A program made the position numbers and the translations under genes. A DNA stretch of 64,000 nt from an uncultured Clostridia bacterium (lineage in GTDB: Bacteria; Bacillota; Clostridia; Oscillospirales; Acutalibacteraceae). Under the pieces are notes generated by a model. That model did not search any database. It was not told the origin of the DNA and saw only the letters and a list, made by a program, of their open reading frames with translations. Shown here piece by piece: positions 17,157 through 43,184 of the stretch (position 1 is its first letter; each line of letters starts with the position of its first letter). The stretch is from assembly GCA_946183365.1 (NCBI GenBank), contig CAMHAH010000002.1, forward strand, positions 1 to 64,000. The letters run 5' to 3'.

Positions 17157-18548
17157 ATGTTTTTTCAAAAGCGCTCCGCTGTGAGCTTTGACGGTTATCT
17201 GAGAAAAAACGTCAAAGACGCGGTAAACGCCTCTGATGCAAATATACCTGAGAGAATACTTCAGGATGAAAGATTTGAAGGGATAACTCCCTTTGAAAAC
17301 AAGATCTGGCTCTCAAGTCCCACCATGCACGGCGACGAGCAGAAATGGGTCGATGAAGCTATTCAGACCAACTGGGTCAGCACCGTAGGTGCGAATATCA
17401 ACGAGATAGAGCATAAAGTAGCAGAGATGGTAGGCTGCAAGTACGCTGTAGCCCTCTCAGCGGGTACAGCGGCTCTGCATCTCGCCGTCAAGCTCTGTGC
17501 AGAGAAGCTGTACGGTCAGCCCGGCGCGGGTCACGGCTCTCTCGAGGGCAAAAAGGTATTCGCCTCGGATATGACCTTCGACGCTACCGTAAACCCGATC
17601 GCATATGAGGGCGGCGAGGCCGTATTCATCGATACGGAGTACGACACATGGAACATGGACCCGAAGGCGCTCGAAAAGGCGTTTGAGATCTATCCCGATG
17701 TAAGGCTGATAGTGGTGGCGCATCTTTACGGCACACCCGGAAAGATCGACGAGATCAAGGCTATCGCGGACAAGCATAACGCTTTGATCGTCGAGGACGC
17801 CGCCGAGTCTTTTTGCGCTACATACAAGGGCGCTCAGACAGGCCGCTTCGGCGACGTCGGCGTCCTTTCGTGGAACGGTAATAAGATAATCACCGGCAGC
17901 AGCGGCGGTATGCTGCTGACCGATAACGAGGAATGGGCGAACAAAGCCCGCAAGTGGTCTACTCAGAGTCGTGAGGACGCCGCTTGGTATCAGCATGAGG
18001 AGATCGGCTATAACTACCGTATGAGCAATATCGTTGCCGGCGTAGTAAGAGGCCAGCTCCCATATGCAAAAGAGCATTGCGCTCAGAAGAAGGCTATCTA
18101 CGAGAGATATAAAGAAGGTCTCAAGGATCTGCCCGTACAGATGAATCCGTATGACGGCAAGAACTCTGAGCCTAACTACTGGCTCTCTTGTCTGATGATC
18201 GATAAAGAGGCTATGGCTCCCACTGTAAGAGGCGAGAAAGAGGCCATGTATCAGACCAAGCCCGGCAAGAGCAGTCCTACAGAGATACTCGAGGCTTTTG
18301 CGGCGTTCAACGCTGAGGGCAGACCTATCTGGAAGCCCATGCATATGCAGCCTATATACAGAACCAATCCGTTTATAACAGCTACCGGCAGCGGAAGAGC
18401 GAGAAGCAACGCTTATATAGCTGAGAGCGGCATGGTAGACGTCGGCGCCGATATCTTTAACAGAGGCGTGTGTCTGCCCAGCGATAACAAGATGACGCCT
18501 GAGCAGCAGGATATCATCATCGATATCATACACAGGTGCTTCAGATAA
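17157..18548 (+). CDS. DegT/DnrJ/EryC1-type sugar aminotransferase
   Basis: A 463-residue PLP enzyme. After an unusual N-terminal extension of about 50 residues come IWLSSPTMHGDEQKWVDEAI, VALSAGTAALHLAVKL (phosphate loop), IVVAHLYGTPGKIDEI, ALIVEDAAESFCATYKG and WNGNKIITGSSGGML, which holds the Schiff-base lysine. These features match UDP-4-keto-sugar aminotransferases such as PglE. The product would be a 4-amino sugar nucleotide. The 4,6-dehydratase that should make its substrate is not in the window. GGGAGGGAAGG precedes the ATG. Confidence 0.92.
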   Translation: MFFQKRSAVSFDGYLRKNVKDAVNASDANIPERILQDERFEGITPFENKIWLSSPTMHGDEQKWVDEAIQTNWVSTVGANINEIEHKVAEMVGCKYAVALSAGTAALHLAVKLCAEKLYGQPGAGHGSLEGKKVFASDMTFDATVNPIAYEGGEAVFIDTEYDTWNMDPKALEKAFEIYPDVRLIVVAHLYGTPGKIDEIKAIADKHNALIVEDAAESFCATYKGAQTGRFGDVGVLSWNGNKIITGSSGGMLLTDNEEWANKARKWSTQSREDAAWYQHEEIGYNYRMSNIVAGVVRGQLPYAKEHCAQKKAIYERYKEGLKDLPVQMNPYDGKNSEPNYWLSCLMIDKEAMAPTVRGEKEAMYQTKPGKSSPTEILEAFAAFNAEGRPIWKPMHMQPIYRTNPFITATGSGRARSNAYIAESGMVDVGADIFNRGVCLPSDNKMTPEQQDIIIDIIHRCFR

Positions 18549-18586
18549 TCGCTGACGATAATCTAAACAAAACGACGGGTGAACAA

Positions 18587-19276
18587 ATGTATAAGGTAAA
18601 GCATAGTTTTTATCAAAAATATGTTAAACGGTTGTTTGATATTGTCCTGTGCTCGCTGGCTTTGATCATTCTTTCGCCGATCTATCTTATCATCGTGATC
18701 GGCATTAAGGTATCAAGTCCGGGCACGGTGCTTTATTACTCCGACAGAGCGGGGCTGAACGGCAAGCCGTTCCATTTTTATAAATTCAGGTCGATGCATC
18801 AGACAGACAATGATAAAAAGATGTTTGTCGCGGATCAGGACCGCGTATTCCCCTTCGGTAAGGTGATGCGCCGCTTAAAGCTTGACGAACTGCCCCAGCT
18901 GATAAACGTTATCAAGGGTGATATGAGCATCGTCGGCCCGAGACCTATGACGGTCGAAGGCGTAAAGAAGATATACGCCGGTAAATATGAGCCGATCAAA
19001 GCTGTCAGACCGGGGCTCACAAGCATCGCGAGCCTTTACGATTATCTGGTCGGCGATACGTATACCGACAACGATGAGTATATGAGGGTCGTGCTGCCGG
19101 TAAAGAAGGAGCTCGAGCTGCTGTATGTTGAGAAGCAGTCGTTCTTATATGACGCTCAGCTGGTTTGGCGCACGATAGTTGCCATTATACAGGTAGCCTT
19201 CGGCAAGAAGGACTTCAAAGAGATGAAGGAGCTCAGTGAGATCGACCCCGAGATACGGCGATTAACAGTTAAGTGA
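18587..19276 (+). CDS. Initiating sugar-1-phosphate transferase (undecaprenyl phosphate PGT)
   Basis: A 229-residue monotopic phosphoglycosyl transferase of the PglC/WcaJ catalytic-domain type. One N-terminal membrane segment is present (RLFDIVLCSLALIILSPIYL), followed by PGTVLYYSDRAGLNGKPFHF, YKFRSMHQ, the DE catalytic pair in LKLDELPQLINVIKGDMSIV and GPRPM, and VRPGLTSIASL. It moves a sugar phosphate onto undecaprenyl phosphate and so starts the repeat unit. ATG 18587 lies after the aminotransferase stop; the track start 18536 overlaps it. Confidence 0.93.
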   Translation: MYKVKHSFYQKYVKRLFDIVLCSLALIILSPIYLIIVIGIKVSSPGTVLYYSDRAGLNGKPFHFYKFRSMHQTDNDKKMFVADQDRVFPFGKVMRRLKLDELPQLINVIKGDMSIVGPRPMTVEGVKKIYAGKYEPIKAVRPGLTSIASLYDYLVGDTYTDNDEYMRVVLPVKKELELLYVEKQSFLYDAQLVWRTIVAIIQVAFGKKDFKEMKELSEIDPEIRRLTVK

Positions 19277-25321: not shown

Positions 25322-25326
25322 ATACT

Positions 25327-27201: not shown

Positions 27202-28287
27202 ATGTACAGTAATATTGATAATGTCAAGGTGATAGGTATAGCGGCGGCCGTCTCTGAAAAATGGGACTCCGTTATGGAGGTCACAAACGAAAGCCAAGAG
27301 GTTTTGAAGCGTTTTGTAAAGAAAACCGGCGTAGAGGGTCGTTATTCTGCATCCCTTAAGCAGACTACTTCGGATTTCTGCTGCGCGGCTGCAGAAAGGT
27401 TGCTGACAGAAAAGAACATCAACAGAGAGGATATCGGGGTCCTTGTGTTTGTAACACAGATGCCCGATTACCGCATTCCGGCCACAGCCTGTGTTTTGCA
27501 GATGAGACTGGGTTTGAGCAATAACTGTATTGCATTTGATGTGAACTTAGGCTGTTCGGGTTTCGTATACGGGCTGAACATCCTTTCGAGTTTGATGAGT
27601 ACCTCCTCAGCCAGATACGGACTGCTGCTTGCGGGCGATACCTCCGCAAGAGAGTTCAGCAATAAGCAAAAAGAGAAAATAGGACATACAAGTGAGCTGC
27701 TCTTCGGTGACTCCGGGACTGCAACTCTCTTAGAGCGCAGCGAAGGAGACAGCCTCTCGTTCATGTCCAATACCAAAGGCAGCGGATTTAGAGCAATCAT
27801 TGCTCCTTACGGTTGGTATCGCAATCCCGAATCTCCCGACGGCAGAATACACTATTCCGTAATGGATGATATCGAGGTATTCAACTTTGCTACAAATGAG
27901 GCTCCCGAGCAGATCAGTAGCTATATGGATAAAAAAGGAACTACATCTGCTGATTACGATTGTCTTGTGCTTCATCAGGCAAATCTGATGATAATGAAGC
28001 GCATTGCTAAAAAAACCGGTTTCTCCGAAGATAAAATGCTCGTTTCAATGAATAAATTTGCAAACACATCGTCTTCTTCGATCCCCCTGACGCTGGTATA
28101 TACCTATGGAGATTCAGAAGAAAACAAGTCGATAAACGCTCTGTGCTGCGGTTTCGGCGTTGGCCTCTCTTGGGCGACAGTCGGGCTTTCCGTAAACAAA
28201 AAAGATATTCTGCCGCTTGTCCATACAAGTGAGTATTTCAAAGACGGATATAATTTAGACGATTTGGAGGAAAACAATAATGACTGA
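27202..28287 (+). CDS. 3-oxoacyl-ACP synthase III family protein (KASIII, copy 2)
   Basis: A 361-residue paralogue of 25327-26415. The triad is intact: Cys in FDVNLGCSGFVYGL, His in VLHQANLMIMKRI, and Asn in KFANTSSSSIPLTL (NTSSSS instead of NTGGIS). AGGAGGATAAT precedes the ATG. Its end overlaps the first ACP by 8 bases. The different neighbourhood of the Asn and the changed starter pocket suggest another starter unit or chain step. Confidence 0.92.
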   Translation: MYSNIDNVKVIGIAAAVSEKWDSVMEVTNESQEVLKRFVKKTGVEGRYSASLKQTTSDFCCAAAERLLTEKNINREDIGVLVFVTQMPDYRIPATACVLQMRLGLSNNCIAFDVNLGCSGFVYGLNILSSLMSTSSARYGLLLAGDTSAREFSNKQKEKIGHTSELLFGDSGTATLLERSEGDSLSFMSNTKGSGFRAIIAPYGWYRNPESPDGRIHYSVMDDIEVFNFATNEAPEQISSYMDKKGTTSADYDCLVLHQANLMIMKRIAKKTGFSEDKMLVSMNKFANTSSSSIPLTLVYTYGDSEENKSINALCCGFGVGLSWATVGLSVNKKDILPLVHTSEYFKDGYNLDDLEENNND

Positions 28288-28498
28288 GCAGGAAAAGATC
28301 GCACTGATCGAAGAAACACTCGACCTTGACGAGGGCACACTTACGGCTGATACCGTACTTGACGATGTAGACGAGTACGACTCGATGGCTAAGCTCTCGC
28401 TTATCGTAATGATGGACGACGAGTTCGGCGTAAAGCTGACAGGCGACGTAATCAAGGGCTTTAAGACAGTAGGCGATATCCTCGCCGTTATGAATTGA
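28280..28498 (+). CDS. Acyl carrier protein (ACP 1)
   Basis: A 72-residue acidic four-helix protein. The phosphopantetheine site is Ser35 in DEYDSMAKLSLI, and helix II and III segments (VMMDDEFGVKLTGD, GFKTVGDILAVM) fit the ACP family. It differs from ACP 2 in only three residues. It overlaps the KASIII gene, so it is probably its partner. Confidence 0.95.
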   Translation: MTEQEKIALIEETLDLDEGTLTADTVLDDVDEYDSMAKLSLIVMMDDEFGVKLTGDVIKGFKTVGDILAVMN

Positions 28499-28541
28499 CC
28501 GGCGCCTGCAATATTCAGGTTCCGAAACAGGTGAAACAATA

Positions 28542-29306
28542 ATGTATAATCTTGTAGATCTAACAGATAAAAAAATATTGGTAGTGGGAGCCTCATCGGG
28601 TATCGGCAAACAGACTGCCGTTACTCTCAGCCGGCTGGGCGCCAAGGTGATACTTGCCGCACGCAGAGAGGACAAGCTCATGGAAACGCTGGCTCTGCTT
28701 GAGGGAGAGGGCCACAGCGTGAAGAGATTTGACGTGCAGGATACCGACGGCATAGAAAAGGTCGTAAATGATATAGTGGCCGAATCCGGCGCTCTGGATG
28801 GAATGGTTTATTCTGCGGGTCTCGGGACAGCGCTCCCACTTCAGCAAACCAAGCCCGAGAAAATCAATCAGGTATTTGATGTTAATTTCTTCGGCTTTAT
28901 AGAGACGGTAAGGCAGCTTTGCAGACGCGGCAGGTTTAATCCCGGTATGCGTATCGTCGGTATTTCGTCTGTCGCTTCGATACGCGGAGATAAATCAAAA
29001 ACTGCTTATTCTGCGTCTAAATCTGCGATGGACTCGGCTGTGCGCTGTATAGCCCGCGAGGTTGCCGACAAGGGTATATGCATAAACAGCGTTGCTCCGT
29101 CTATGACGGCCACAGAGCTTTACACACATTATCTCGATAAATACGGAGAGGATAGCGAAACCAACAAGGATCTGCTCAAAAGGCAGTATCTCGGTATTGC
29201 CGAAACCTCCGATATTGCAAATGCCGTGGCATTTTTACTTAGCCCCGCCGCGAGATTCATAACGGGAATAACTCTTCCTGTTGACGGCGGACTGACAACT
29301 TGCTGA
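28542..29306 (+). CDS. SDR oxidoreductase, FabG-like (copy 2)
   Basis: A 254-residue paralogue of 26429-27190. Cofactor motif VVGASSGIGKQTAVTLS, YSAGLGTALPL, Ser in GISSVASIRGDKS, active site YSASKSAMDS, and the C-terminal block LKRQYLGIAETSDIANAVAF shared with copy 1. It is presumed to reduce the keto group made by KASIII copy 2. No strong ribosome site is seen; AACAGGTGAAAC lies upstream. Confidence 0.88.
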   Translation: MYNLVDLTDKKILVVGASSGIGKQTAVTLSRLGAKVILAARREDKLMETLALLEGEGHSVKRFDVQDTDGIEKVVNDIVAESGALDGMVYSAGLGTALPLQQTKPEKINQVFDVNFFGFIETVRQLCRRGRFNPGMRIVGISSVASIRGDKSKTAYSASKSAMDSAVRCIAREVADKGICINSVAPSMTATELYTHYLDKYGEDSETNKDLLKRQYLGIAETSDIANAVAFLLSPAARFITGITLPVDGGLTTC

Positions 29307-29346
29307 GCATTTGATTCAATGATATGAATAGAAAGGAAGTATAATT

Positions 29347-29565
29347 ATGACAGAAAAGGAAAAAATCGCACTGATCGAAGAGACACTCGATCTTGATGAG
29401 GGCACACTGACAGCGGACACCGTACTTGACGACGTAGACGAGTATGACTCGATGGCTAAGCTCTCACTGATAGTAATGATGGACGACGAGTTTGGCAAGA
29501 AGCTGACAGGCGACGTCATCAAGGGCTTCAAGACCGTAGGCGATATCCTCGCCGTGATGGAATAA
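29347..29565 (+). CDS. Acyl carrier protein (ACP 2)
   Basis: A 72-residue ACP with Ser35 in DEYDSMAKLSLI. It is one residue different from ACP 3, which starts 19 bases after it, and nearly identical in DNA. AAAGGAAG precedes the ATG. Confidence 0.95.
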   Translation: MTEKEKIALIEETLDLDEGTLTADTVLDDVDEYDSMAKLSLIVMMDDEFGKKLTGDVIKGFKTVGDILAVME

Positions 29566-29584
29566 TATTTGGAGGTAAAAGACA

Positions 29585-29803
29585 ATGACAGAAAAGGAAA
29601 AGATCGCACTGATCGAAGAGACACTCGATCTCGACGAGGGCACACTCACAGCCGACACCGTACTTGGGGATGTAGACGAGTATGACTCGATGGCTAAGCT
29701 CTCACTGATAGTGATGATGGACGACGAGTTTGGCAAGAAGCTGACCGGAGATGTTATCAAGGGCTTCAAGACCGTAGGCGATATCCTCGCCGTGATGGAA
29801 TGA
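29585..29803 (+). CDS. Acyl carrier protein (ACP 3)
   Basis: A 72-residue tandem duplicate of ACP 2; the only amino-acid change is Asp28 to Gly (TVLGDVDEYDS). It has its own site TTGGAGG. Confidence 0.95.
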   Translation: MTEKEKIALIEETLDLDEGTLTADTVLGDVDEYDSMAKLSLIVMMDDEFGKKLTGDVIKGFKTVGDILAVME

Positions 29804-29817
29804 TCGAGGGAATAACG

Positions 29818-30060
29818 ATGACTAACTTAGAAAAGTATAACAAAGCATTCATCGATACCTTCGGCGTAAGCGAGGACGCACTCGGTGAGAATTTTACATT
29901 CAAGGATGTGCCCGTATGGGATTCGGTAGCGCATCTTTCTCTTATATCCGAGCTTGAGGACAGCTTTGATGTGCTGTTTGACGCTGAGGATATACTTCAC
30001 TACGGCTCGTATCTCAACGGTATAGAAATACTCAAGAGATACGGCGTTGAGTTTGACTGA
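29818..30060 (+). CDS. Divergent acyl carrier protein (ACP 4)
   Basis: An 80-residue ACP or peptidyl-carrier-like protein. The site is Ser36 in VPVWDSVAHLSLISELEDSF, followed by DAEDILHYGSYLNGIEILKR. It is clearly different from ACP 1-3 and may carry another acyl group, for example one loaded by the AMP ligase at 43226. ATG 29818 has GAGGGAAT; the track start 29800 has no site. Confidence 0.9.
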   Translation: MTNLEKYNKAFIDTFGVSEDALGENFTFKDVPVWDSVAHLSLISELEDSFDVLFDAEDILHYGSYLNGIEILKRYGVEFD

Positions 30061-30138: not shown

Positions 30139-31284
30139 ATGCGTATATGGGTAGTCGGCAGAGGAATGCCCAGTAAACGGAATAATTTGTTGGGCAGCTT
30201 TGAACTTGAACAAGCGCAAATGCTTGCGCGAGCGGGCATGGACGTCTGCTATTTCGGCGTGAATGTACGCTCGGCAAGGGATCTGAAAGGATTAGGTTAC
30301 CGATACTCTTCTGTTGGCTCTGTCAAGACAGCTTCTTTCAATTTTCCTATCGCAAGATTTATGAATTGGGCCGCGTCGATGCGAATAGCGGTCAAGTGTT
30401 TTCGTGCGCTCGCCGATAATATGGTGAAAAGATACGGTATGCCCGATGTGATACACATCCATTATCCGGCGCTCTGGATGTATGACGCCTTCGAGCCTTT
30501 TCAGAAGAAGGGAGTCAGGATAGTCGCAACCGAGCACTGGTCGCGGGTCATGGAGAAGCAGATCGACGGCGTGCACTCTGAGAGTCTGAGAGAATTCAGT
30601 AAAAAAAGCGACGCTTTGATCTGTGTCAGCTCTGGTCTTGAAAGATCCATCAGAGAGCTGACGGGCACAAAGCGCGACATCTATGTCATACCTAACTTTG
30701 TAAGCTCGGCTTTTTCTATAAAGAGCGAGCCTCATAAGAGCTTTAATTTTATTTGTGTAGGCAGAGTGATACCGATAAAGCAGTTTGACAAGGTCGTCTC
30801 TGCTTTTATTGAGGTGTTCAAAAATAAGTCCGATGTCGTGCTGACTGTTGCCGGCGGCGGAAGCGACTTCGGCAAGCTGAGTAGGATCGTAGCCGATGCC
30901 GGCGCCCATGACAGGGTAAAGCTGCTTGGCACTGTGCCGAGAGAGAAAATGGCTGAGGTCATGGCGTCAGCCGACGCTTTGATATGCTACAGCGTGTATG
31001 AGACTTTCTGCGTCCCGATAATAGAGGCGTGGATGTCCGGCAAGCCGGTCATAGTACCGTCATCTTTGCCGCTGGCGCAGGATAATAATGACGAAAGACT
31101 TGAGAAGCTCGTGGATTATAGTGATACGGAGACTCTCAAGGCCGCTATGCTTGAAATGTATAATGACCACAGCCGTTATGACAGCGAGTGGATAGCGGCT
31201 TACGCTAATGAGCGTTTCAGCGAGCAGGCGGTATCAAAACAGCTGACAGATATCTATCAACAGGTAATAAGGAAAAATCAATGA
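30139..31284 (+). CDS. Glycosyltransferase family 4 (GT-B fold)
   Basis: A 381-residue retaining-type transferase. The N-terminal acceptor domain contains MPDVIHIHYPALWMYDAF. The C-terminal donor domain contains FNFICVGRVIPIKQFDKVVS, VLTVAGGGSDFGKLSRI, RVKLLGTVPREKMAEVMASA and the EX7E motif (ETFCVPIIEAWMSGKPVIVP). It adds one sugar to the lipid-linked repeat unit; donor and acceptor are unknown. Its 3' end overlaps the Wzy gene by 4 bases (ATGA). Confidence 0.93.
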   Translation: MRIWVVGRGMPSKRNNLLGSFELEQAQMLARAGMDVCYFGVNVRSARDLKGLGYRYSSVGSVKTASFNFPIARFMNWAASMRIAVKCFRALADNMVKRYGMPDVIHIHYPALWMYDAFEPFQKKGVRIVATEHWSRVMEKQIDGVHSESLREFSKKSDALICVSSGLERSIRELTGTKRDIYVIPNFVSSAFSIKSEPHKSFNFICVGRVIPIKQFDKVVSAFIEVFKNKSDVVLTVAGGGSDFGKLSRIVADAGAHDRVKLLGTVPREKMAEVMASADALICYSVYETFCVPIIEAWMSGKPVIVPSSLPLAQDNNDERLEKLVDYSDTETLKAAMLEMYNDHSRYDSEWIAAYANERFSEQAVSKQLTDIYQQVIRKNQ

Positions 31285-32573
31285 GACTGACAATTCATAA
31301 AAGACAGGGAAAATTAAATCTCAGACAGCTTTTGATCGGCGTGATGGTAATATGGCCTTTTCTATATTCCATATGGATACAGGTCAGAATTACTGCGAGT
31401 ACATTTGTGCATTTCCCTTTGATATTGCTAGGAGCGACTGCGATAATAGCTGTTATCTGTTTCGGAAAGCTGTATCAAAGCATTTTACTTGTATGGTTGA
31501 TTTTTTACGGCGTGATCCTGTTATTATCACTCAAGTCGAATAAAAAAGTATTCTTCATGGATTTTGCGGTCAGCTTCAGCTCATGGCTGATCTGCTATAC
31601 CGCGGGAAGAAGGAATGTTTCTTTTGATCTGGTATGCAAGATCGTGCGCAGGCTGGGTATCATTACCGCGTTCACGGTCATTTTGGATTCTACTACCCGT
31701 ATCATTTCGAAAGTGATAGCTCCCATGTTTTATACAAGCGCCGATGTGGAGAAGTTCTCAGGCAGATCCGGGATCCTGAGCTCCGGTTTATTCACACATT
31801 CGGGAATCGCCGGATGCTTCCTTGTGCCCGGTTTATTTGCTTTTTTGGTGAGCTACAGAAATAAAAAGAAAAATGCGTTTTTTTGGATCATGCTGAGTGT
31901 ATTGGCTCTGGGTATAATACTCATCAATAAACGCGGCTTCATGTTGGATATAGCTATCTCGTTGCTTGTCGTCTTTTTGGTCGCAAGACAGTCTGAAGGC
32001 AAAATGAAACTGAGATTGAACCGCGTCCTGATAGTGGTGTTCAGCATACTTATTATAATAGGCGTGTTGTTTGCTATGTATATGAGCATACCGCTCGTAA
32101 GGCAATCCATAAACAATATCACGGATAAGTTCGCTGATGACGATGGTACGCTCTCAGGCAGGACAGAGCTTTATGATCTGGCTATACGTCTGTTCAAGCA
32201 GCATCCGATCATTGGCATAGGTTGGGGCAATTTCAGAGAACAGTCCTTACACGTATTCAGAATGACAAGCTCCAAGACCTATGAAACTCATAACGTTTAT
32301 CTGCAGCTCTTATGTGAGACGGGCGTCATAGGTCTGGCGGCGTTTTTGATAACCATAATATGGATGCTGGTATATACGATAAGACGGTTTATGAGGGTCA
32401 ACTCGATGTATCCCGATTCCGAGGCGTCACTGGCTCTGCGCTTATCTATGTATCTACAACTTTTCTTCATAACCTATTGCTTCAGCGGAAACCCGCTGTA
32501 TGACTATGTTTTTGTTGTTACCTACTTTATTGGTATAGTGCTCTTGGGCGTTAATGAAAGGGAAAATGTATGA
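31281..32573 (+). CDS. wzy: Polysaccharide polymerase/O-antigen ligase family (Wzy-like)
   Basis: A 430-residue membrane protein with about 11-12 hydrophobic segments. A large loop with SGRTELYDLAIRLFKQHPII, then GIGWGNFREQ and ETHNVYLQLLCETGVIGLAA, is the signature of the O-antigen ligase/Wzy domain. It should polymerise repeat units outside the membrane. Coupled by 4-base overlaps to the genes before and after it. Confidence 0.9.
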   Translation: MRLTIHKRQGKLNLRQLLIGVMVIWPFLYSIWIQVRITASTFVHFPLILLGATAIIAVICFGKLYQSILLVWLIFYGVILLLSLKSNKKVFFMDFAVSFSSWLICYTAGRRNVSFDLVCKIVRRLGIITAFTVILDSTTRIISKVIAPMFYTSADVEKFSGRSGILSSGLFTHSGIAGCFLVPGLFAFLVSYRNKKKNAFFWIMLSVLALGIILINKRGFMLDIAISLLVVFLVARQSEGKMKLRLNRVLIVVFSILIIIGVLFAMYMSIPLVRQSINNITDKFADDDGTLSGRTELYDLAIRLFKQHPIIGIGWGNFREQSLHVFRMTSSKTYETHNVYLQLLCETGVIGLAAFLITIIWMLVYTIRRFMRVNSMYPDSEASLALRLSMYLQLFFITYCFSGNPLYDYVFVVTYFIGIVLLGVNERENV

Positions 32574-33646
32574 AAGCAGGAATAATGACCTTTTTCAGCG
32601 CGAATAACTACGGCGCCGTTCTTCAGGCTTACGCGTTGCAAAAAAAGCTGACATCCGAGAACATCGAATGTGAATGTATAGATTATAAGTGCGACGCTAT
32701 AGAGAAGATGCATCAACCCAGAAAAATCGATATAAAATACGGTTTGATTGGCAACGCGAAGATTATAGTTAGCAATATACTGAACGGTCCGAGGCTGAAG
32801 GCGTTCGCTCCGTTCAGAGAGAACATCTCTCACAGCAAGCCGTATACTAAAGCCACTATAGCTCAGGCAAACAATGTTTACGACGCTTTCATCACCGGCA
32901 GCGATCAGGTATTCAGCCTTGACCTCACAGGCTCAGATACCGCGTATTTCCTTGACTTTGTTGCCGACGGTAAACGTAAGATATCCTATGCCGCGAGCAT
33001 GGGAAGGTATCTTGAGGAATACAAGGATATTTATAAGGAACAGCTTGGCAGCTTTGATCTTTTGTCCTTCAGAGAAAAGGCGATAGCCGACAAGATAAAG
33101 AGCGAGATAGATATAGAAGGTCAGACCATACCCGATCCGGTCTTTCTTTTGACGGGTGAGGAATGGAAGAAGAGCCTTAATATTTCGCAAAAATCGAACG
33201 AGAGATATATATTTGTATACGCTCTCTTCGGTTCAAAGACCCTGTTGCAAGCAGCTCAAAGACTGGCTCGTGAGAAGAACTGCAGGCTGTACATAGTCAC
33301 AAAGCTGAATAAGCTGTCGGTAAATGCCGATAAGATAATCAGGGACGCTTCTCCCGAGAGGTTTATCGAGCTTATCGCTAACGCTGAGTATGTGCTGACT
33401 GATTCGTTCCACGGGACTGCGTTCTCATTGATACTAAAAAAGCAGTTCTATACCGTTCTTCCCCCGAAAGCGCCGGAAAGAATAACCGATTTGCTGAGCT
33501 CGGACGAGCTCAAGGCGAGGATCATAGATGATCAGAGCGCGGCGGACGGCAGAGAATTCGACACATCGTTCTCTGCACAGGTCACCGAGAGCTTAAAGCA
33601 TACGGGAGAAAGTTATATTTCTTTGATCAAAAATATAATCAGTTAA
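32570..33646 (+). CDS. Polysaccharide pyruvyl transferase family protein
   Basis: A 358-residue protein of the CsaB/WcaK family, which adds pyruvate ketals from PEP to sugars. Family motifs: MTFFSANNYGAVLQAYALQK (N-terminal NYGA), DAFITGSDQVFSLDL, ISYAASMGRYLEEY, FREKAIADKI and LTDSFHGTAFSLIL. No Fe-S or other domain. It overlaps Wzy by 4 bases. Confidence 0.9.
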   Translation: MKAGIMTFFSANNYGAVLQAYALQKKLTSENIECECIDYKCDAIEKMHQPRKIDIKYGLIGNAKIIVSNILNGPRLKAFAPFRENISHSKPYTKATIAQANNVYDAFITGSDQVFSLDLTGSDTAYFLDFVADGKRKISYAASMGRYLEEYKDIYKEQLGSFDLLSFREKAIADKIKSEIDIEGQTIPDPVFLLTGEEWKKSLNISQKSNERYIFVYALFGSKTLLQAAQRLAREKNCRLYIVTKLNKLSVNADKIIRDASPERFIELIANAEYVLTDSFHGTAFSLILKKQFYTVLPPKAPERITDLLSSDELKARIIDDQSAADGREFDTSFSAQVTESLKHTGESYISLIKNIIS

Positions 33647-33683: not shown

Positions 33684-35957
33684 ATGCGTGTTTTAACTGT
33701 AACATATTTGATTAATAATTACGGCTCGGTTTTACAGGCGTTCGCACTGCAAAACATTTTAAAAGAAAACTCAGCTGAGCCTGTTATCATCAAAATAAAG
33801 AACAGGCCCTCCGGACGAAAAGCAAAAATAAATAAGTATCTGAAGGTTTTTAAGCCGACAAAGAGTTACACAAGTTCGGTCAAACTGAAAATGATACTTC
33901 AGGAAGGTCGCTTCATCGAAAAAGAAAAAAAGCTCAAACGCTTTATAGATGAACACATCTCTGTTATTGAAGTGAATTCATCTAAAGAAGCCGCGAGAGA
34001 GGTAAAAGACACCGATATTTTATTGGCAGGAAGCGACCAGATCTGGACTTATATAACGGGAAAAACCGCCTCTTGGTATACATTCAGATGGCCGGGACTG
34101 TCTGATGACGTAAAGAGAGTAAGCTATGCCGCAAGCGCCGGTCTTAGCGAGCTCAGCGACGTCCAAAAGGATGATTATCACAGAGCTCTCAGGGATTTCA
34201 GCTGCGTTTCCTTCAGAGAGCAGCAGAGCGTCGATCTCCTTGGATCCTCTTTATCATCTCCTGTTCGCTGCGATCTCGACCCGACATTGCTGTTTGATAA
34301 GGAGAAGTGGTCTGAGTTAGCCGCTGAGCGGATAGAAAGCTCCCCTTACGTGTTTGTATATATGCTCAGACCCGACACCCGATTGATAGAAATGGGTAAA
34401 AAATACGCCGCCGAACATAACTGTAAGGTTATCTATACCGGCTTGATGGCGGATAATTATAAAGGAGTGGAAACCGTCTGTTCCGCGGGAGTAGAAGAGT
34501 TTCTCTCATATATCAAATATGCTGACGCTGTCATAACGAATTCTTTTCACGGTATGGCTTTTTCAATACAGTTCGAGAAGCAGTTTGTATCCGTTCAGTT
34601 ATCATCTACAAACTCGAGAGCGTTAAATCTTTTGAACAAGCTCGATCTGGCCCACAGACAAATCAAAACGATTGAAGAAATATCGGTTTTGAATGATAAG
34701 ATAGATTATATCCCGGTCAAAGAACGCTTGACCGCAGAGAGAGCCTTATCGCTCGGATATATAAAGCAGATATGCTCGAGTGAAGTATTTGATAAGCCTG
34801 TTAAAAAATCGTACTTCGATACAGGCCACAGCTCAGATTGCAGAGGCTGCACAGCCTGCTCCGCAAACTGTCCCGTAAACGCGATCAGCATGATCGCTGA
34901 AAACGGCTTTGTCTATCCTGAGATAGACGATGAAAAGTGTATACACTGCAACAAATGTGTAAAAACCTGTGAAAAGACCCTCAGGACAATATCGGGGTCA
35001 GATAACGCTGAGGTTTATTACGGCTGGAACTCCGATAAGGATATAAGATGGCAGAGCACCTCGGGCGGAGCGTTCCGCGCTATTGTGGACGCTTATACAA
35101 AGGAATTTCCCGAAGCCTGGGTATACGGAGCGGTATACAACGATAAATTCTATGTTGTGCATACCGGTACTCAGGATAAGAATGTCATCTCTGATATGTG
35201 CCGCTCAAAGTATCTTCAGAGTAATATCGAAGGTATTTATGATGAGATAAAAGAACGTATCAAGAATAAACAGCGCGTGCTGTTTTCGGGTACTCCGTGT
35301 CAGGTCGCCGGTCTGAGAGCGGTCATAGGCGATACCGAGTATCTGCTTACGGTAGACTTTATTTGTCACGGTGTATCTAATCCGCTGTATTTCAGCGAGT
35401 ACATCAAAGGCTTGGGCGAGAAAAAGAACAGTCCGGTCACATCATATTCATTCAGGACAAAGACAGATACGCTGAAAAAGAAATCTTATCGCTTGATATC
35501 GCTCAAATACGAGAACGGAACAAGCGAGCTTACCGATGAAGATCTGTATGTCATGTCGTATAAGTATCGGATGTTTTACAGAAGCTCATGCTATAACTGC
35601 GAGTTTGCGCGTATGGAGCGCTGTTCGGACATAACACTTGGAGATTTCTGGGGATTAGAGAAAAAGATCCCCGCTTTGCAGACCGAGCGGCTCAAGGGTA
35701 TCTCTATGATGATGCTCAATACAGACAAGGCGAGATCATTCAAAAACAATCTTTCGAAATACTTTGAGATGAAACGCTATGACGGTGATTTTACGGCTTA
35801 TTCACATCTGTTCCTGCCTTCGGCATCATGCCGCGTAAAGATGAAGGAATACTCGGATGACCAAAGCTTTATCGACTATCTGTCAGATACGATCACCCCT
35901 AAGATGAGAGCGATGTATACACACCCCAAGGCGGCGTGGCTGTTGAGAATTCTCTGA
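33684..35957 (+). CDS. Fusion of pyruvyl transferase and FrhB-like Fe-S domain
   Basis: A 757-residue two-part protein. Residues 1 to about 370 are a polysaccharide pyruvyl transferase domain (VTYLINNYGSVLQAFALQNI, LLAGSDQIWTY, VSYAASAGLSEL, ITNSFHGMAFSI). Residues 385-440 hold two [4Fe-4S] ferredoxin motifs (CRGCTACSANCPVNAISM, CIHCNKCVKTCEK). The rest is a coenzyme F420 hydrogenase/dehydrogenase beta-subunit-like domain (TSGGAFRAIVDAY, RVLFSGTPCQVAGLRAVIGD, YNCEFARMERCSDITLGDFW). ATG 33684 is chosen; no strong ribosome site is seen, and GTG 33672 is an alternative. Confidence 0.9.
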   Translation: MRVLTVTYLINNYGSVLQAFALQNILKENSAEPVIIKIKNRPSGRKAKINKYLKVFKPTKSYTSSVKLKMILQEGRFIEKEKKLKRFIDEHISVIEVNSSKEAAREVKDTDILLAGSDQIWTYITGKTASWYTFRWPGLSDDVKRVSYAASAGLSELSDVQKDDYHRALRDFSCVSFREQQSVDLLGSSLSSPVRCDLDPTLLFDKEKWSELAAERIESSPYVFVYMLRPDTRLIEMGKKYAAEHNCKVIYTGLMADNYKGVETVCSAGVEEFLSYIKYADAVITNSFHGMAFSIQFEKQFVSVQLSSTNSRALNLLNKLDLAHRQIKTIEEISVLNDKIDYIPVKERLTAERALSLGYIKQICSSEVFDKPVKKSYFDTGHSSDCRGCTACSANCPVNAISMIAENGFVYPEIDDEKCIHCNKCVKTCEKTLRTISGSDNAEVYYGWNSDKDIRWQSTSGGAFRAIVDAYTKEFPEAWVYGAVYNDKFYVVHTGTQDKNVISDMCRSKYLQSNIEGIYDEIKERIKNKQRVLFSGTPCQVAGLRAVIGDTEYLLTVDFICHGVSNPLYFSEYIKGLGEKKNSPVTSYSFRTKTDTLKKKSYRLISLKYENGTSELTDEDLYVMSYKYRMFYRSSCYNCEFARMERCSDITLGDFWGLEKKIPALQTERLKGISMMMLNTDKARSFKNNLSKYFEMKRYDGDFTAYSHLFLPSASCRVKMKEYSDDQSFIDYLSDTITPKMRAMYTHPKAAWLLRIL

Positions 35958-36053: not shown

Positions 36054-37610
36054 ATGGCAAAATCAAGAACGACTAAAGCGACATTGAATATTGCGACTTC
36101 AGCGATCTATGAAGTCGCCGCGATGGTGTGCGCGCTGATATTACCGCGTTTGATTCTGTCGCATTTCGGCTCTGCATATAACGGTATAGTTTCTTCTGTC
36201 TCACAGTTCCTCACGCTTATCTCGCTTTTAACGCTGGGCGTGACCGCTTCTACAAGAGTAGCGTTATATCAATCTCTCGCCGCTAAGGATATTCGAAAGA
36301 CCAGCGCTATCGTACGCGCTACCAATAACTATATGCGCAAGGTCGGAATCGTACTGCTGATATATATCCTTGCTATCGCTTTGATATATCCTTTGGTAGT
36401 ACATACGGGCTTTGATTATTTTGACATATTCATTCTGATACTGATAATCGGCGCCAGCGCCTTTGCCGAGTTTTTCTTCGGAGTAACATATCGTACCTTC
36501 CTGCTTGCCGATCAGAGCGTATATATTTCCAATATCTTCACGACTATCTCTGTCATATTGAATACGGTGCTCTCTGTAATACTGATAAATATGGGCTTCA
36601 GTATTCAAATAGTAAAGCTGGGCAGCGCGGCGGTATTTGTGCTCCGACCGATCATGCAGTATATATATGTACATAAAAAGTATAAGCTGATAAAGAATAT
36701 CGAGCCTGACAAGAGCGCGCTTAATAAGCGCGGCGACGCTATGGCTCACGCGCTCGCGAATATCGTCCATGACCATACCGATATTATAGTCCTGACCATA
36801 TTTACCGACGTCAAGACGGTATCGGTATATACCGTGTATAATCTGGTCATGAACGCGCTCAAAAAGATACAGTCCATAATGACGACCGGTACCGAGCCGA
36901 TATTCGGCGATATGTGGGCAAAGGGCGAAAAAACCAAGATCAAGAATTTTCTCGGTTTCTATGAGTTCGCAATATACTCGTTCGCGTCTATAGTTTTCTC
37001 AATAGCCATGGTCATGCTGCTGCCGTTCATTGCTCTGTATACCAAGGGTGTACACGACGTAGAGTATATACTGCCGGTATATGCAGTGGTCATAACGATG
37101 GCGTTCGCTTTCCAGTCTATCAGGACACCGTATTTGTGTCTGGTACAGGGTGTCGGTCATTACAAAGAAACAAAGGCTGCCGCTATCATTGAGGCTGCCA
37201 TGAATATAGTGATATCAGTTGTTCTGGTACAGTTCATCGGTATAGTCGGCGTTGCGGTGGGTACATTCGTCGCCAATGTATACCGTTCATATCAGTACGC
37301 GTTTTACATAGATAAGAATATCGTCAAGAGAGGTAAAAGAGTATTCATATTAAAGTCGATATGGGCTTTGTTCAATATGGCGCTGATATGTATTCCCGCT
37401 GAGCTGGTATTACAAAACATCGTGATCAACAGTTGGCTGAAGTGGATCGGAGTAGCGGTTATCGTAAGTATGTACGCTATCGTCGTATGGTTGATCTCGT
37501 CGCTGATATTCTACCGCAAGGACATGATAGTCGCCTTGAAGCGAGGTAAAGACATCATGCAAAAGCGTTTCTTAAAGCGCAAAAGAAAAAGACCTGAGGT
37601 AAGATCATAA
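36054..37610 (+). CDS. wzx: Polysaccharide flippase (Wzx/MATE-like)
   Basis: A 518-residue membrane protein with about 14 hydrophobic segments, starting ATLNIATSAIYEVAAMVCAL, with the polysaccharide transporter pattern (LPRLILSHFGSAYNGIVSSV). It flips the undecaprenyl-linked unit to the outer face. A basic cytoplasmic tail (KRFLKRKRKRP) ends the protein. Its stop overlaps the carboxyltransferase start by one base (TAATG), tying the export genes to the carboxylase genes in one transcript. Confidence 0.92.
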   Translation: MAKSRTTKATLNIATSAIYEVAAMVCALILPRLILSHFGSAYNGIVSSVSQFLTLISLLTLGVTASTRVALYQSLAAKDIRKTSAIVRATNNYMRKVGIVLLIYILAIALIYPLVVHTGFDYFDIFILILIIGASAFAEFFFGVTYRTFLLADQSVYISNIFTTISVILNTVLSVILINMGFSIQIVKLGSAAVFVLRPIMQYIYVHKKYKLIKNIEPDKSALNKRGDAMAHALANIVHDHTDIIVLTIFTDVKTVSVYTVYNLVMNALKKIQSIMTTGTEPIFGDMWAKGEKTKIKNFLGFYEFAIYSFASIVFSIAMVMLLPFIALYTKGVHDVEYILPVYAVVITMAFAFQSIRTPYLCLVQGVGHYKETKAAAIIEAAMNIVISVVLVQFIGIVGVAVGTFVANVYRSYQYAFYIDKNIVKRGKRVFILKSIWALFNMALICIPAELVLQNIVINSWLKWIGVAVIVSMYAIVVWLISSLIFYRKDMIVALKRGKDIMQKRFLKRKRKRPEVRS

Positions 37611-39160
37611 TGGATAATATTTGGAAAGAAAAAACCGAAAAGCTGAATGAAAGACGACTGTCGGCGCGTGAGGGCGGCGGCAAGGCGAGGATCGACAAGC
37701 AGCATGAAAAAGGCAAGCTGACCGCTCGTGAGAGGCTTGAAGCGCTGTTTGACGACAATACCTTTGTCGAAGTGAACGACCTCATAGCCTCGCGCTGCTC
37801 AGATTTCGGCATGGATAAAAAGAAGCGCCCCGGCGACGGAGTAGTTACCGGCTACGGATATATCCACGGCAGGCTGGCGTATGCCGCTTCTCAGGATTTC
37901 ACCGTAGGCGGCGGCTCTCTCGGAGAGGCTCATGCTATGAAGATATGCCGCGTCATGGATATGGCGCTTGAGATGAAGGCGCCGTTCATATCTGTCAACG
38001 ACAGCGGCGGCGCTCGAATAGAAGAGGGCATCGACAGCCTCGCGGGATATGCCGATATCTTTTATCGCAATACCATAGCGTCGGGCGTTATCCCTCAGAT
38101 ATCGGTCATACTCGGACCGTGTGCCGGCGGAGCCTGTTACTCGCCGGCTATTTGTGATTATATATTTATGACAGAAGAAAACAGCCAGATGTATATCACC
38201 GGACCCTCGGTGGTAAAGTCTGTTACCGGTGAGGTCATCACCGCCGCGGAGCTTGGCGGCGCATCGGTACACGCGGGTGTATCGGGTGTGGCTCACTTTG
38301 TATATCCCGATGATCTTTCATGTCTCAACGGCGTGAGAAGGCTGCTGGGTTATCTGCCTCAAAGCAATGAAGATGAGATATTGACGGTACCCGGAAGATC
38401 TATAGATCGCTGCTCGGAGCTACCCGATATCGTGCCTGCCGACTCTAAAAAGGGCTATGATGTGAGAGACGTCATTGCTACCTTCGTAGATGAAGGCTCA
38501 TTCATGGAGGTACAGGCGGCTTTCGCTCAGAACATAGTTGTAGGCTTTTCGCGGATCGAGGGCAAGACCGTGGGTATAGTAGCGAACCAGAGCAACTATA
38601 TGGCGGGCTCGCTTGAGATAAACGCTTCTGATAAGGGAGCGCGCTTCATACGCTTCTGTGACTGCTTTGGAATACCCCTGCTCACTTTGGTTGACGTACC
38701 GGCGTTCCTGCCCGGCAGTCAGCAGGAGCACGGCGGTATCATACGTCACGGCGCAAAGATGCTGTACGCGTACTCAGAGGCTACCGTACCTAAGATATCG
38801 GTCATTATGCGCAAGGCTTACGGCGGAGCGTATATCGCGATGAACAGCAAGGGCATCGGCGCCGATACGGTATTCGCTTGGCCTATCGCCGAGATAGCGG
38901 TAATGGGCGCTTCGGGCGCTGTCGCGATCATCGGCAGAAGAGCGATCGACGCCGCTGAGGATCCCTCGGCTAAGCGCGAGGAGCTAATAAATGAATATAA
39001 TGAAAAGTTCATGAACCCGTATATAGCCGCCGAGCACGGCTATGTCGACGAGGTCATCCTGCCTGAAGAAACAAAAATTAGGGTCGTATCCGCTTTGAGG
39101 ATGCTTGAAAACAAAAAGCAGCAAAGACCCTATAAAAAGCACGGTAATATTCCGCTGTAA
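37610..39160 (+). CDS. Acyl-CoA carboxyltransferase subunit (transcarboxylase 12S-like)
   Basis: A 516-residue biotin-dependent carboxyltransferase of the PccB/MmdA/12S type. It begins with KLTARERLEALFDDNTF. The two oxyanion-hole regions are FISVNDSGGARIEEGIDSLA with GPCAGGACYSPAICDY (N half) and DVPAFLPGSQQEHGGIIRHG with RKAYGGAYIAMNSKGIGADT (C half). It transfers CO2 between carboxybiotin and acetyl- or propionyl-CoA. With the next three genes it forms a complete carboxyltransferase set without biotin carboxylase or the membrane decarboxylase beta subunit. Confidence 0.93.
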   Translation: MDNIWKEKTEKLNERRLSAREGGGKARIDKQHEKGKLTARERLEALFDDNTFVEVNDLIASRCSDFGMDKKKRPGDGVVTGYGYIHGRLAYAASQDFTVGGGSLGEAHAMKICRVMDMALEMKAPFISVNDSGGARIEEGIDSLAGYADIFYRNTIASGVIPQISVILGPCAGGACYSPAICDYIFMTEENSQMYITGPSVVKSVTGEVITAAELGGASVHAGVSGVAHFVYPDDLSCLNGVRRLLGYLPQSNEDEILTVPGRSIDRCSELPDIVPADSKKGYDVRDVIATFVDEGSFMEVQAAFAQNIVVGFSRIEGKTVGIVANQSNYMAGSLEINASDKGARFIRFCDCFGIPLLTLVDVPAFLPGSQQEHGGIIRHGAKMLYAYSEATVPKISVIMRKAYGGAYIAMNSKGIGADTVFAWPIAEIAVMGASGAVAIIGRRAIDAAEDPSAKREELINEYNEKFMNPYIAAEHGYVDEVILPEETKIRVVSALRMLENKKQQRPYKKHGNIPL

Positions 39161-39174
39161 CGGAGGTGTCCGCA

Positions 39175-39351
39175 TTGAAATTGACCGATGAAGCCATCGT
39201 CGCTATGGCGATAGCCGCTATCGCTGAGGAAAGCGGCGCCGAAATGAGCGATATCAGAGTGAGATCGTTCAAGAAGGTCGGTAAGAGCCAACTTGAAGAA
39301 TATATCGAAGAACGCGGTATCGCTTATAAAAAATATCAACTGGGAGACTGA
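39175..39351 (+). CDS. Small putative subunit of the carboxyltransferase complex
   Basis: A 58-residue protein (LTDEAIVAMAIAAIAEESGA, then VRSFKKVGKSQLEEYIEERG). The start is TTG 39175, 8 bases after GGAGG; the track start GTG 39166 overlaps that site. It has a short helical N-terminal part and no clear membrane span. Its place between the 12S-like and biotin-carrier genes, and its size, recall the small epsilon-type subunits of methylmalonyl-CoA decarboxylases, but homology could not be shown. Confidence 0.6.
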   Translation: MKLTDEAIVAMAIAAIAEESGAEMSDIRVRSFKKVGKSQLEEYIEERGIAYKKYQLGD

Positions 39352-39355
39352 ACGA

Positions 39356-39733
39356 ATGAGTAAATACAGAATAACCCTGAACGGAGAAGTATATGAGATG
39401 GAGGTCGAGCTGATCGAAGAAGGCTCTGCCCCGATAAAGACCGAAGCTAAGCCCGCTGTACGCGATACAGAGCGTCCCGCGGCGCAGAAAGCTCCCGCAC
39501 AGGCTGATAACACTTCCGCCGACGGCGCTGTAGTCAGCCCCATGCCCGGCACGGTCGTCCAGCTCATGGCGGCTCAGGGCGATAAGGTCAGCAAAGGCCA
39601 GCCTATTCTGGTGCTTGAGGCTATGAAAATGGAAAATGAGATAACAGCCGCTAAAGACGGCGTGCTGTCTGAGCTGCGCGTTGCCGAGGGACAGACGGTC
39701 GCGGGCGGCGAGATACTATTTATAATCGGCTGA
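39356..39733 (+). CDS. Biotin carboxyl carrier protein (1.3S-like)
   Basis: A 125-residue biotinyl protein. N-terminal part YRITLNGEVYEMEVELI, a Pro/Ala-rich linker (residues 30-55), and a C-terminal biotinyl domain with VVSPMPGTVVQL and the biotin site Lys91 in VLEAMKMENEI. Size and order match the 1.3S subunit of transcarboxylase. ATG 39356 follows GGGAG; the track start 39293 lies in the previous gene. Confidence 0.95.
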   Translation: MSKYRITLNGEVYEMEVELIEEGSAPIKTEAKPAVRDTERPAAQKAPAQADNTSADGAVVSPMPGTVVQLMAAQGDKVSKGQPILVLEAMKMENEITAAKDGVLSELRVAEGQTVAGGEILFIIG

Positions 39734-39748
39734 TAAGGCGGTAGATAT

Positions 39749-41161
39749 ATGGAAAACAAGCTGAATTTTCCGGCGCGAAAGCTGTATATAACCGATACCA
39801 TCCTGCGTGACGCCCATCAGTCGCAGGCTGCTACGCGTATGCGCCTTGAGGATATGCTGCCTGCCTGTGAGGCTCTCAATGAGGTGGGCTACTGGTCGCT
39901 CGAGTGTTGGGGCGGCGCTACCTTTGACGCCTGTATGCGCTTCCTTGGTGAGGATCCGTGGGACAGGCTCAGAGCGCTCAGAAGAGCTCTGCCGGATACA
40001 AAATTACAGATGCTCCTGAGAGGTCAGAACCTGCTCGGTTACCGTCATTACGCCGATGACGTTGTAGATGAATTCTGCAAAAAATCCATAGAGAACGGTA
40101 TCGATATCGTCAGGATATTCGACGCACTCAACGACGTCCGCAATATGAGAGCGGCTATGACGAGCGTGAAGAAGTACGGCGCTCACTGTGAGGCGGCTAT
40201 CAGCTATACCACCAGCCCCGTTCACAGCGACGATTACTTTGTCGAACTCGCAGCAAAGCTCGAAGATATGGGAGCTGATACGATCTGTATCAAGGATATG
40301 GCTAATATCCTGCTTCCGGATAACGCATATACACTTATTAAGAAGATCAAAGAAAAGGTGAGCGTGCCTGTTCACCTTCATACACATAATACGACCGGCA
40401 CCGGCGCTATGGTATATATGGCGGCGGCTATGGCAGGCGTAGATATCATCGACTGCGCTCTGTCGCCGTTTGCCGACGGTACCGCTCAGCCGGCGACCGA
40501 GTCTATGGTAGCGGCGTTCAGGGGCACACCCCGTGATACGGGTCTGGATCTCAAGAAGCTGAATAAGGCGGCAAAGCATTTCAGAAAGGTCGCTCAGCGC
40601 CTGCAGGATGAGGGCACGCTCAACCCAAAGGTGCTGCGTACCGACCCAAACACCCTGCTCTATCAAGTGCCGGGCGGTATGCTGTCGAACCTTATGTCAC
40701 AGCTGCATGAGGCAAACGCGGATGATAAGTTTGATGAGGTGCTCAAAGAGGTCCCCAGAGTACGAGAGGACTTCGGCTATCCTCCGCTGGTCACGCCCAC
40801 AAGCCAGATCGTCGGCACACAGGCTGTGCTGAATGTCCTGTTCGGCGAGCGTTACGGCACCTTTACCAAAGAGTCAAAGGGTTTGCTCAGAGGAGAATAC
40901 GGTTCTCTGCCCGGTAAGGTCAATGAGGATATCCGCAAAAAGGCTATCGGCGATGACGAGGTCATCCAATGCCGCCCCGCCGACCTGCTCGAGCCTGAGC
41001 TGGATAAGGACAGAGAGAGCTACAGCGATATCGCGAGGAGCGATGAGGATGTGCTCAGCTGTGTGCTCTTCCCACAGGTAGCCCCTGAGTTTTTGAAGAA
41101 AAAGTACGCGCAGCCCGAAGAAGAAAAGGTCACAGAGATAAATGTTGTCTGGGACAGATAA
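39749..41161 (+). CDS. Oxaloacetate/pyruvate carboxyltransferase subunit (5S-like)
   Basis: A 470-residue protein with the DRE-TIM barrel of pyruvate carboxylase/oxaloacetate decarboxylase alpha. Metal and substrate residues are in ITDTILRDAHQSQAATRMR, the carboxylated lysine is Lys182 in DTICIKDMANILLP, and the metal histidines are in VPVHLHTHNTTGTG. A conserved PYC_OADA domain follows (RVREDFGYPPLVTPTSQIVG). It has no biotin domain, which is supplied by the preceding gene, as in the 5S subunit of transcarboxylase. It would move CO2 from oxaloacetate to biotin, releasing pyruvate. Confidence 0.92.
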   Translation: MENKLNFPARKLYITDTILRDAHQSQAATRMRLEDMLPACEALNEVGYWSLECWGGATFDACMRFLGEDPWDRLRALRRALPDTKLQMLLRGQNLLGYRHYADDVVDEFCKKSIENGIDIVRIFDALNDVRNMRAAMTSVKKYGAHCEAAISYTTSPVHSDDYFVELAAKLEDMGADTICIKDMANILLPDNAYTLIKKIKEKVSVPVHLHTHNTTGTGAMVYMAAAMAGVDIIDCALSPFADGTAQPATESMVAAFRGTPRDTGLDLKKLNKAAKHFRKVAQRLQDEGTLNPKVLRTDPNTLLYQVPGGMLSNLMSQLHEANADDKFDEVLKEVPRVREDFGYPPLVTPTSQIVGTQAVLNVLFGERYGTFTKESKGLLRGEYGSLPGKVNEDIRKKAIGDDEVIQCRPADLLEPELDKDRESYSDIARSDEDVLSCVLFPQVAPEFLKKKYAQPEEEKVTEINVVWDR

Positions 41162-42008: not shown

Positions 42009-43184
42009 ATGAATATCCAACTTCCCACTACGACCTGTACAGGCTGTTCTGCCTGTATGAATACCTGTTCGGTCGGCGCGATAACCATGGCGGAACAAAC
42101 CGACGGCTTTTTGTATCCTCAGATCGATGATGGAAAATGTATAAAATGCGGTCAGTGCATGAAGGTGTGTCACGCTCTCGGTTTTGAGGGCTTCAATCAG
42201 CCTTCGCAAACCTATGCCGCTCAGGTAAATGATAAAGATGTGTTGAAGGCCAGCACCTCGGGCGGTTTGTTCTTCGCGCTCGCGCAGAGCATACTATCTG
42301 AGGGCGGCGTTGTATACGCCTGTAATTATGACGATGATTACAACGCTTTCATTCAGAGATTTGACGCTGTAGAACAGATCGCGCCCGTACACGGCTCAAA
42401 GTATGTATGGAGCGATTCGTCACTCAGCTATCCCCTTGTCAAAAAGGACCTTGACGACGGAAAGGCCGTTTTGTATACCGGTCTGCCGTGTCAGATAGCG
42501 GGTCTCAGAAAATATTTGAAAAAAGATCATGAAAACCTCTTTACCGTCGATGTTTTATGCGGCGGCGCTCCGAGCCCCTACGCGTTTCAGAGATATCTTG
42601 ATACCCTGACGGACAAAGAGGGCAGGAAAAACCTGTGTTTTCAGTTCAGAGATAAAGGGAAGAACGGCTCGGGTGTATGCTGCACCTACTATGTAAACGG
42701 TGTAAAGCACTATGAGAACTACCTTGAAAACAGCTTTTACTTTGCTTTCTGTTCACAATCGAGGATATCATGGCGAAAGTCGTGTTACACCTGTAATTAC
42801 AAGAGCCTGAGCAGGGCGTCAGATATGTCTATAGGTGACTATTGGGGTGTTGAAAAGTATCACAATGATTTCAAGCCTAAGGACGGCGTGTCCCTGGTGA
42901 TGATAAACACCGATCAGGGCAAACGCCTTTTTGAAAAGATAAAGGGCAGTATCAAATATGTCGAGAGCAAGGCGGTATATGCGATTGAGAAAAACAGCCT
43001 TGTAAAAGAGCCCGCCGAGGGCCACCATAAAATGCCCGAAAACAGAGAGGCGTTCTTTGAAGAGCTCCGCCGCAGCGACTGGAATACGGTGGATAAAATG
43101 TATCTCGGAAGCAGGCATAAAATATTGAACAAGCAGAAGCTCACGCGGATACCGCGAAAGCTCATGCGTATATTTAAAAAATAA
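42009..43184 (+). CDS. FrhB-like Fe-S protein (stand-alone)
   Basis: A 391-residue relative of the C-terminal half of 33684-35957. Two ferredoxin motifs (CTGCSACMNTCSVGAITM, CIKCGQCMKVCHALG) precede a coenzyme F420 hydrogenase/dehydrogenase beta-subunit domain (STSGGLFFALAQSI, VLYTGLPCQIAGLRKYLKKD, CYTCNYKSLSRASDMSIGDY). Such proteins occur in many surface-polysaccharide loci, where they are assumed to reduce a sugar or isoprenoid intermediate. No function is proven. It begins 73 bases after the SDR. Confidence 0.9.
   Translation: MNIQLPTTTCTGCSACMNTCSVGAITMAEQTDGFLYPQIDDGKCIKCGQCMKVCHALGFEGFNQPSQTYAAQVNDKDVLKASTSGGLFFALAQSILSEGGVVYACNYDDDYNAFIQRFDAVEQIAPVHGSKYVWSDSSLSYPLVKKDLDDGKAVLYTGLPCQIAGLRKYLKKDHENLFTVDVLCGGAPSPYAFQRYLDTLTDKEGRKNLCFQFRDKGKNGSGVCCTYYVNGVKHYENYLENSFYFAFCSQSRISWRKSCYTCNYKSLSRASDMSIGDYWGVEKYHNDFKPKDGVSLVMINTDQGKRLFEKIKGSIKYVESKAVYAIEKNSLVKEPAEGHHKMPENREAFFEELRRSDWNTVDKMYLGSRHKILNKQKLTRIPRKLMRIFKK

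Follow-up and report, generated by a model that had tools for sequence, protein, structure and literature searches.

We found that a single open reading frame of an uncultured Clostridia bacterium joins a polysaccharide pyruvyltransferase domain to an iron-sulfur reductase of the FrhB family. On the basis of conserved residues, folds and gene pairing, we propose, with confidence slightly short of even, that it encodes a two-step glycan-decorating enzyme, which would transfer an enolpyruvyl group to a sugar and then reduce it to a 1-carboxyethyl (lactyl) ether. The gene lies in a glycan locus of the window, by which we mean the whole stretch of 64,000 nucleotides that was analysed (Table 1).

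Table 1. Features of the fusion gene and of the glycan locus around it (window coordinates).
Feature	Position	Strand	Remarks
Fusion protein, 757 aa	33684..35957	+	pyruvyltransferase domain, two ferredoxin-type [4Fe-4S] motifs and FrhB-like FAD/[4Fe-4S] domain (predicted)
Pyruvyltransferase domain (PF04230), residues 12-305, GT-B-like fold	33717..34598	+	Pfam
Linker, about residues 365-384	34776..34835	+	low-confidence segment 371-381; lacks an in-frame start codon
Two [4Fe-4S] motifs: C386, C389, C392, C396; C419, C422, C425, C429	34836..34974	+	
FrhB_FdhB_C domain (PF04432), residues 530-696, with GTPCQ motif	35271..35774	+	Pfam, fold match
Stand-alone pyruvyltransferase, S/T-type clade	32570..33646	+	37 bp upstream of fusion ATG
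Stand-alone FrhB-like gene, two Fer4 motifs, FrhB N- and C-terminal domains	42009..43184	+	
Wzy/O-antigen-ligase-like gene	31281..32573	+	same glycan locus
Glycosyltransferase, GT4-like	30139..31284	+	same glycan locus
Multi-spanning membrane protein, presumed Wzx-type flippase	36054..37610	+	no Pfam match at E 1e-5; assigned from sequence only
Initiating sugar-phosphate transferase (Bac_transf)	18536..19276	+	marker of lipid-linked glycan pathway

The composite architecture was recovered by Pfam, as the original prediction had described it: PS_pyruv_trans (PF04230) matched at 107.8 bits against a gathering cut-off of 25.3 (E 1e-30), FrhB_FdhB_C (PF04432) at 68 bits against 23.3 (E 1e-18), and Fer4-type motifs were found at residues 384-432. 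Structure prediction from the single sequence reached a pLDDT of 34, and an alignment-based AlphaFold2 model was used instead (mean pLDDT 86.4, pTM 0.69), in which well-predicted domains are separated by a short low-confidence linker at residues 371-381. Fold searches with this model returned F420-reducing enzymes as the best matches, together with the plant reductase HCAR (5dqr) and GT-B enzymes; in our reading, the C-terminal half of the model resembles the F420-reducing enzymes and HCAR, and the N-terminal half the GT-B enzymes. No relative in the PDB was found by sequence for the pyruvyltransferase profile.

The N-terminal half had been labelled CsaB-type, which proved wrong at the level of the subfamily: the fusion scored 27.2 bits on the NCBIfam equivalog model for CsaB (TIGR03609, cut-off 213.1), and in a tree of 166 pyruvyltransferase domains it sits in an S/T-type clade of 130, apart from an R-type clade of 36 that holds the CsaB-like genes. 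Residues R178, H289 and R312 of the fusion align with R148, H308 and K328 of the CsaB PEP site, of which H308 and R148 have been found important (PMC10435577). The PEP-site histidine is kept in all 173 of 173 domains and the PEP-site arginine in both clades, so that at these two positions the fusion, with R178 and H289, matches the ketal-forming enzymes. Two residues N-terminal of the histidine (CsaB R306, Pvg1p R337), 36 of 37 CsaB-type proteins carry arginine, as does E. coli WcaK (R-L-H), which carries the annotation of colanic acid pyruvyl transferase, whereas most others carry serine or threonine, and the fusion has S287. The second clade-specific residue of the fusion, D118, is an aspartate that is invariant across the S/T clade and is glycine in CsaB-type proteins. 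These changes at PEP-contact positions suggest that the pyruvyl chemistry of the S/T clade may be altered. With few exceptions FrhB partners go with the S/T clade and not with the CsaB clade, although R-type loci were mostly viewed with only 1.5 kb of flank.

The original prediction had raised the possibility that a read error near position 34800 joined two genes. An assembly or sequencing error of this kind would fit the six consecutive A at the fusion junction (34804-34809) and the many genomes in which the two parts are encoded by distinct neighbouring genes with gaps of about 50-160 bp. The frame is, however, open throughout from 33684 to 35957, and it holds no ATG, GTG or TTG between position 34740 and the first cluster cysteine (C386, base 34839), so that we see no separate start codon for the FrhB half. 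Fusions in the same order also recur in other genomes. Because 12 further fusions were found in the analysed set and the FrhB half lacks a separate in-frame start, we reject the artefact and regard a merging error as next to impossible.

To see how common the arrangement is, 59 relatives were searched, which yielded further fusions and many split neighbours. The analysed set contains 13 distinct fused ORFs, this one included, and in two of them (L106 and L144, from uncultured Alphaproteobacteria) the domain order is reversed. Among 80 named loci found through FrhB, in Bacillota, Bacteroidota, Spirochaetota, Pseudomonadota and other phyla, five focal genes are fused to a pyruvyltransferase, 38 lie directly beside one, 12 within 3 kb and six farther away; in the remaining 19 the pyruvyltransferase is absent from the fetched stretch, several of these being at contig ends. 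The survey of fusion frequency that had been suggested thus shows fusion in both orders, with split neighbours common in anaerobes of several phyla. In a class-wide sample, PF04432 occurred in 45 of 196 genomes, and the fused form is a minority, since only about 4 of 55 PF04432 genes lie in frames of more than 700 aa. The sampling as a whole mixes MAGs and isolates, and several loci stop at contig edges. One rumen plasmid, pNP95 of Pseudobutyrivibrio xylanivorans (L216), carries two pyruvyltransferase-FrhB neighbourhoods; in the first, the annotation splits the pyruvyltransferase into two overlapping pieces.

Pairing was also seen from the side of the transferase. In a Clostridia sample chosen by hand from pyruvyltransferase matches, regardless of FrhB, 14 of 31 non-R-type pyruvyltransferases were joined to FrhB or lay directly next to it, and 19 of 31 had it within 3 kb; no FrhB was found near 8 of the 31 S-type genes. 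By our own count of a Bacteroidaceae sample (L242-L269), FrhB lay within 1.5 kb of 18 of 28 pyruvyltransferases, and none was found near the other ten S-type genes. About a third of S/T-type genes therefore lack a nearby FrhB. Glycosyltransferases and flippases predominate around these unpaired genes, and the neighbour families listed include no other enzyme that would be an obvious enolpyruvyl reductase, which implies that an S-type enzyme need not mean a lactyl ether.

The 'fused' label changes seven times on the pyruvyltransferase tree and seven times on the FrhB tree (FastTree), so the fusion was probably gained or lost repeatedly; if the well-supported branches of the FrhB tree are the only ones counted, three changes suffice. 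Divergence of the partners is correlated, with a Mantel r of 0.55 over 74 pairs (maximum of 2000 permutations, 0.17) and of 0.32 when the pairs are restricted to those with less than 50% FrhB identity, and shared ancestry contributes to it. The earlier suggestion that the two activities work together is well supported by fusion in both orders, the recurrent label changes, frequent adjacency and correlated divergence, and comparative genomics speaks for a functional link between the domains. Adjacency in glycan cassettes can also reflect modular inheritance.

In the reductase half, 12 cysteines are conserved in at least 99% of 130 FrhB domains, and the SGG, GTPCQ and GDxWG motifs are conserved as well. 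Eight of the cysteines form the ferredoxin-type motifs, contrary to the loss of these motifs in relatives that had been named as a possible objection. The other four, C539, C561, C636 and C639, are probably ligands of a third [4Fe-4S] cluster, by analogy with Fsr and FrhB. Thus the two [4Fe-4S] motifs originally predicted are present, but the protein probably binds three clusters, four near-invariant cysteines having been missed.

The original prediction had also hinted at F420. Use of this cofactor, whether the cell synthesizes it or acquires it from methanogens, would fit the family name, the F420-reducing enzymes among the best structural matches and the CofE-like ligase encoded in the genome. 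Profile searches of the genome did not find the other synthesis genes, with best scores of 58.8 bits for CofH (cut-off 374) and 25 bits for CofG (cut-off 213) and no match for CofD, and the family includes a plant enzyme, HCAR. Because only the CofE-like ligase accompanies the missing CofG, CofH and CofD, F420 is an unlikely cofactor of the FrhB half, and we consider the F420 explanation highly improbable, which makes ferredoxin, as in HCAR and BciB, the likelier donor. BciB is a ferredoxin-dependent vinyl reductase of the FrhB/FdhB family, and the fusion, with its fold match to 5dqr and its 12 conserved cysteines, may be a reductase of the HCAR/BciB type that binds FAD; by analogy with these two enzymes we infer that ferredoxin supplies the electrons. 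The CofE-like ligase itself (PF01996, 200 bits) lies at G000:C5:70323-71459 (L035).

The stand-alone pyruvyltransferase directly upstream of the fusion and the stand-alone FrhB gene, both noted originally, are present; the latter lies about 6 kb downstream of the fusion, may be the partner of the former, and together with the fusion accounts for both PF04432 genes of the whole genome. The locus also contains a fatty-acid/polyketide-like cassette (23769-30060 and 43226-44626) with a FabD-like acyltransferase, two KAS III-like genes, short-chain dehydrogenases, four small ACP-like ORFs and an AMP-ligase, which perhaps makes an acyl decoration. Three of the ACP-like genes, of 72 aa, are nearly identical and in tandem (28280-28498, 29347-29565 and 29585-29803), the last two being one residue apart. 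Carboxyltransferase, biotin carrier and OadA/PYC-like genes, a transcarboxylase-like set, are found among the glycan genes at 37610-41161. At 19278-22306, two related ATP-grasp genes surround a GNAT gene, with a PIG-L deacetylase nearby, a group that could possibly ligate an amino acid to the glycan.

For a PEP-dependent transferase and a reductase that act on one substrate, the simplest scheme by analogy would be enolpyruvyl transfer followed by reduction, as in MurA and MurB. Many anaerobes carry the two parts as neighbours or in one protein, and this points to a later reduction of the attached pyruvate, which would yield a lactate ether. Given the conserved PEP-site residues, the N-terminal domain would place a three-carbon unit derived from PEP on a sugar hydroxyl of the lipid-linked repeat unit, leaving an enolpyruvyl ether without ketal closure. 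Electrons, probably from ferredoxin, would then pass through the two ferredoxin-type clusters and the third cluster to FAD, and the FrhB domain, judging from its fold and cofactor motifs, would reduce the enolpyruvyl double bond to give the 1-carboxyethyl (lactyl) ether. Fusion or pairing would hold the reactive vinyl ether near the reductase. The iron-sulfur-driven reduction in glycan synthesis that was originally hinted at is plausible. No FrhB-paired locus among those examined was matched to a solved glycan structure.

It is possible that the N-terminal domain forms an ordinary pyruvate ketal and that FrhB carries out a separate redox step on a different residue of the same glycan or on one of its precursors, such as a keto- or deoxy-sugar intermediate. 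Fusion and adjacency would then mark a co-inherited cassette for two decorations, which would accommodate both the S-type pyruvyltransferases that occur without FrhB and the 19 of 80 FrhB genes without a pyruvyltransferase in the fetched locus, several at contig ends. Repeated direct fusion in both orders and correlated divergence favour sequential steps on one substrate instead, as does the clade's change at PEP-contact positions, and we judge the ketal explanation unlikely while taking it seriously. That the Fe-S/flavin half serves to sense redox state or oxygen, switching pyruvylation on or off without doing any glycan chemistry, appears improbable to us: Fe-S clusters are oxygen-sensitive and the distribution is mainly in anaerobe-rich groups, but the whole enzyme core is kept (the 12 cysteines, SGG, GTPCQ and GDxWG), beyond what a sensor needs, and the FrhB partner is also found as a separate gene.

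Lactyl-ether sugars occur in capsules and O-antigens, for example in Klebsiella K22/K37, Shigella dysenteriae and Proteus penneri. Outside support for the lactyl-ether reading comes from Klebsiella: a title cited in PMC3857182 and PMC7246685 places 4-O-[(S)-1-carboxyethyl]-D-glucuronic acid in the K22/K37 capsules, and PMC4616057 describes K22/K37 as having a pyruvyltransferase gene and a capsule that is not pyruvylated. The same paper counts two nitroreductases and one coenzyme F420 hydrogenase among Klebsiella cps genes; our guess is that the two nitroreductases come from the nearly identical loci of K22 and K37. Replacement of FrhB by other reductases was considered more widely, but because no nitroreductase is among the listed neighbour families of FrhB-less S-type genes, this idea is unsupported outside Klebsiella. 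A full-text literature search found no paper that brings polysaccharide pyruvyl transferase together with F420 hydrogenase, and no paper describing enzymes that make lactyl-ether sugars was found.

At somewhat less than even odds, fused and paired S/T-type PF04230-FrhB enzymes are a widespread ferredoxin-driven lactyl-ether synthase of anaerobe glycans, independent of MurA/MurB, and would explain where many of the 1-carboxyethyl sugars of capsules and exopolysaccharides come from. If so, a common but functionally unassigned gene pair, found in anaerobes of the gut and rumen, gains a testable function, the S/T clade should no longer be annotated as ketal pyruvyltransferases, and it could become possible to predict glycan structures from sequence. 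The fused form offers a single-polypeptide handle for biochemistry.

The fusion can be compared with four known systems. With the ketal enzymes CsaB (P. alvei), Pvg1p (S. pombe) and WcaK (E. coli) it shares PF04230, the counterparts of R148 and H308 and a basic residue at the K328 position, but it differs in having Ser/Thr for the R306/R337 arginine, Asp for Gly, a separate clade and an FrhB partner. The FrhB_FdhB_C domain is common to the fusion and the FrhB/FdhB-family reductases HCAR, BciB, FrhB and the F420-dependent sulfite reductase Fsr; HCAR and FrhB match it in fold, and Fsr in sequence profile and Fer4 motifs. Unlike these reductases, the fusion belongs to glycan loci, in which the domain lies beside or is fused to a pyruvyltransferase, and no complete F420 synthesis gene set was found in its genome. 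With MurA/MurB of peptidoglycan synthesis it would share the logic of an enolpyruvyl ether on a sugar that is reduced by a flavin enzyme to a lactyl ether; MurA and MurB are not homologous to its halves and have different folds, the reductase is of the Fe-S/ferredoxin type rather than NADPH-dependent, and the substrate is probably a lipid-linked glycan. The dehydro-F420 reductase (FbiB C-terminal domain or FbiE) is a flavin enzyme whose substrate also carries an enol group derived from PEP, which its nitroreductase-family domain reduces (PMC8498797); its fold is that of nitroreductases, and its substrate is a phosphodiester cofactor and not a sugar ether.
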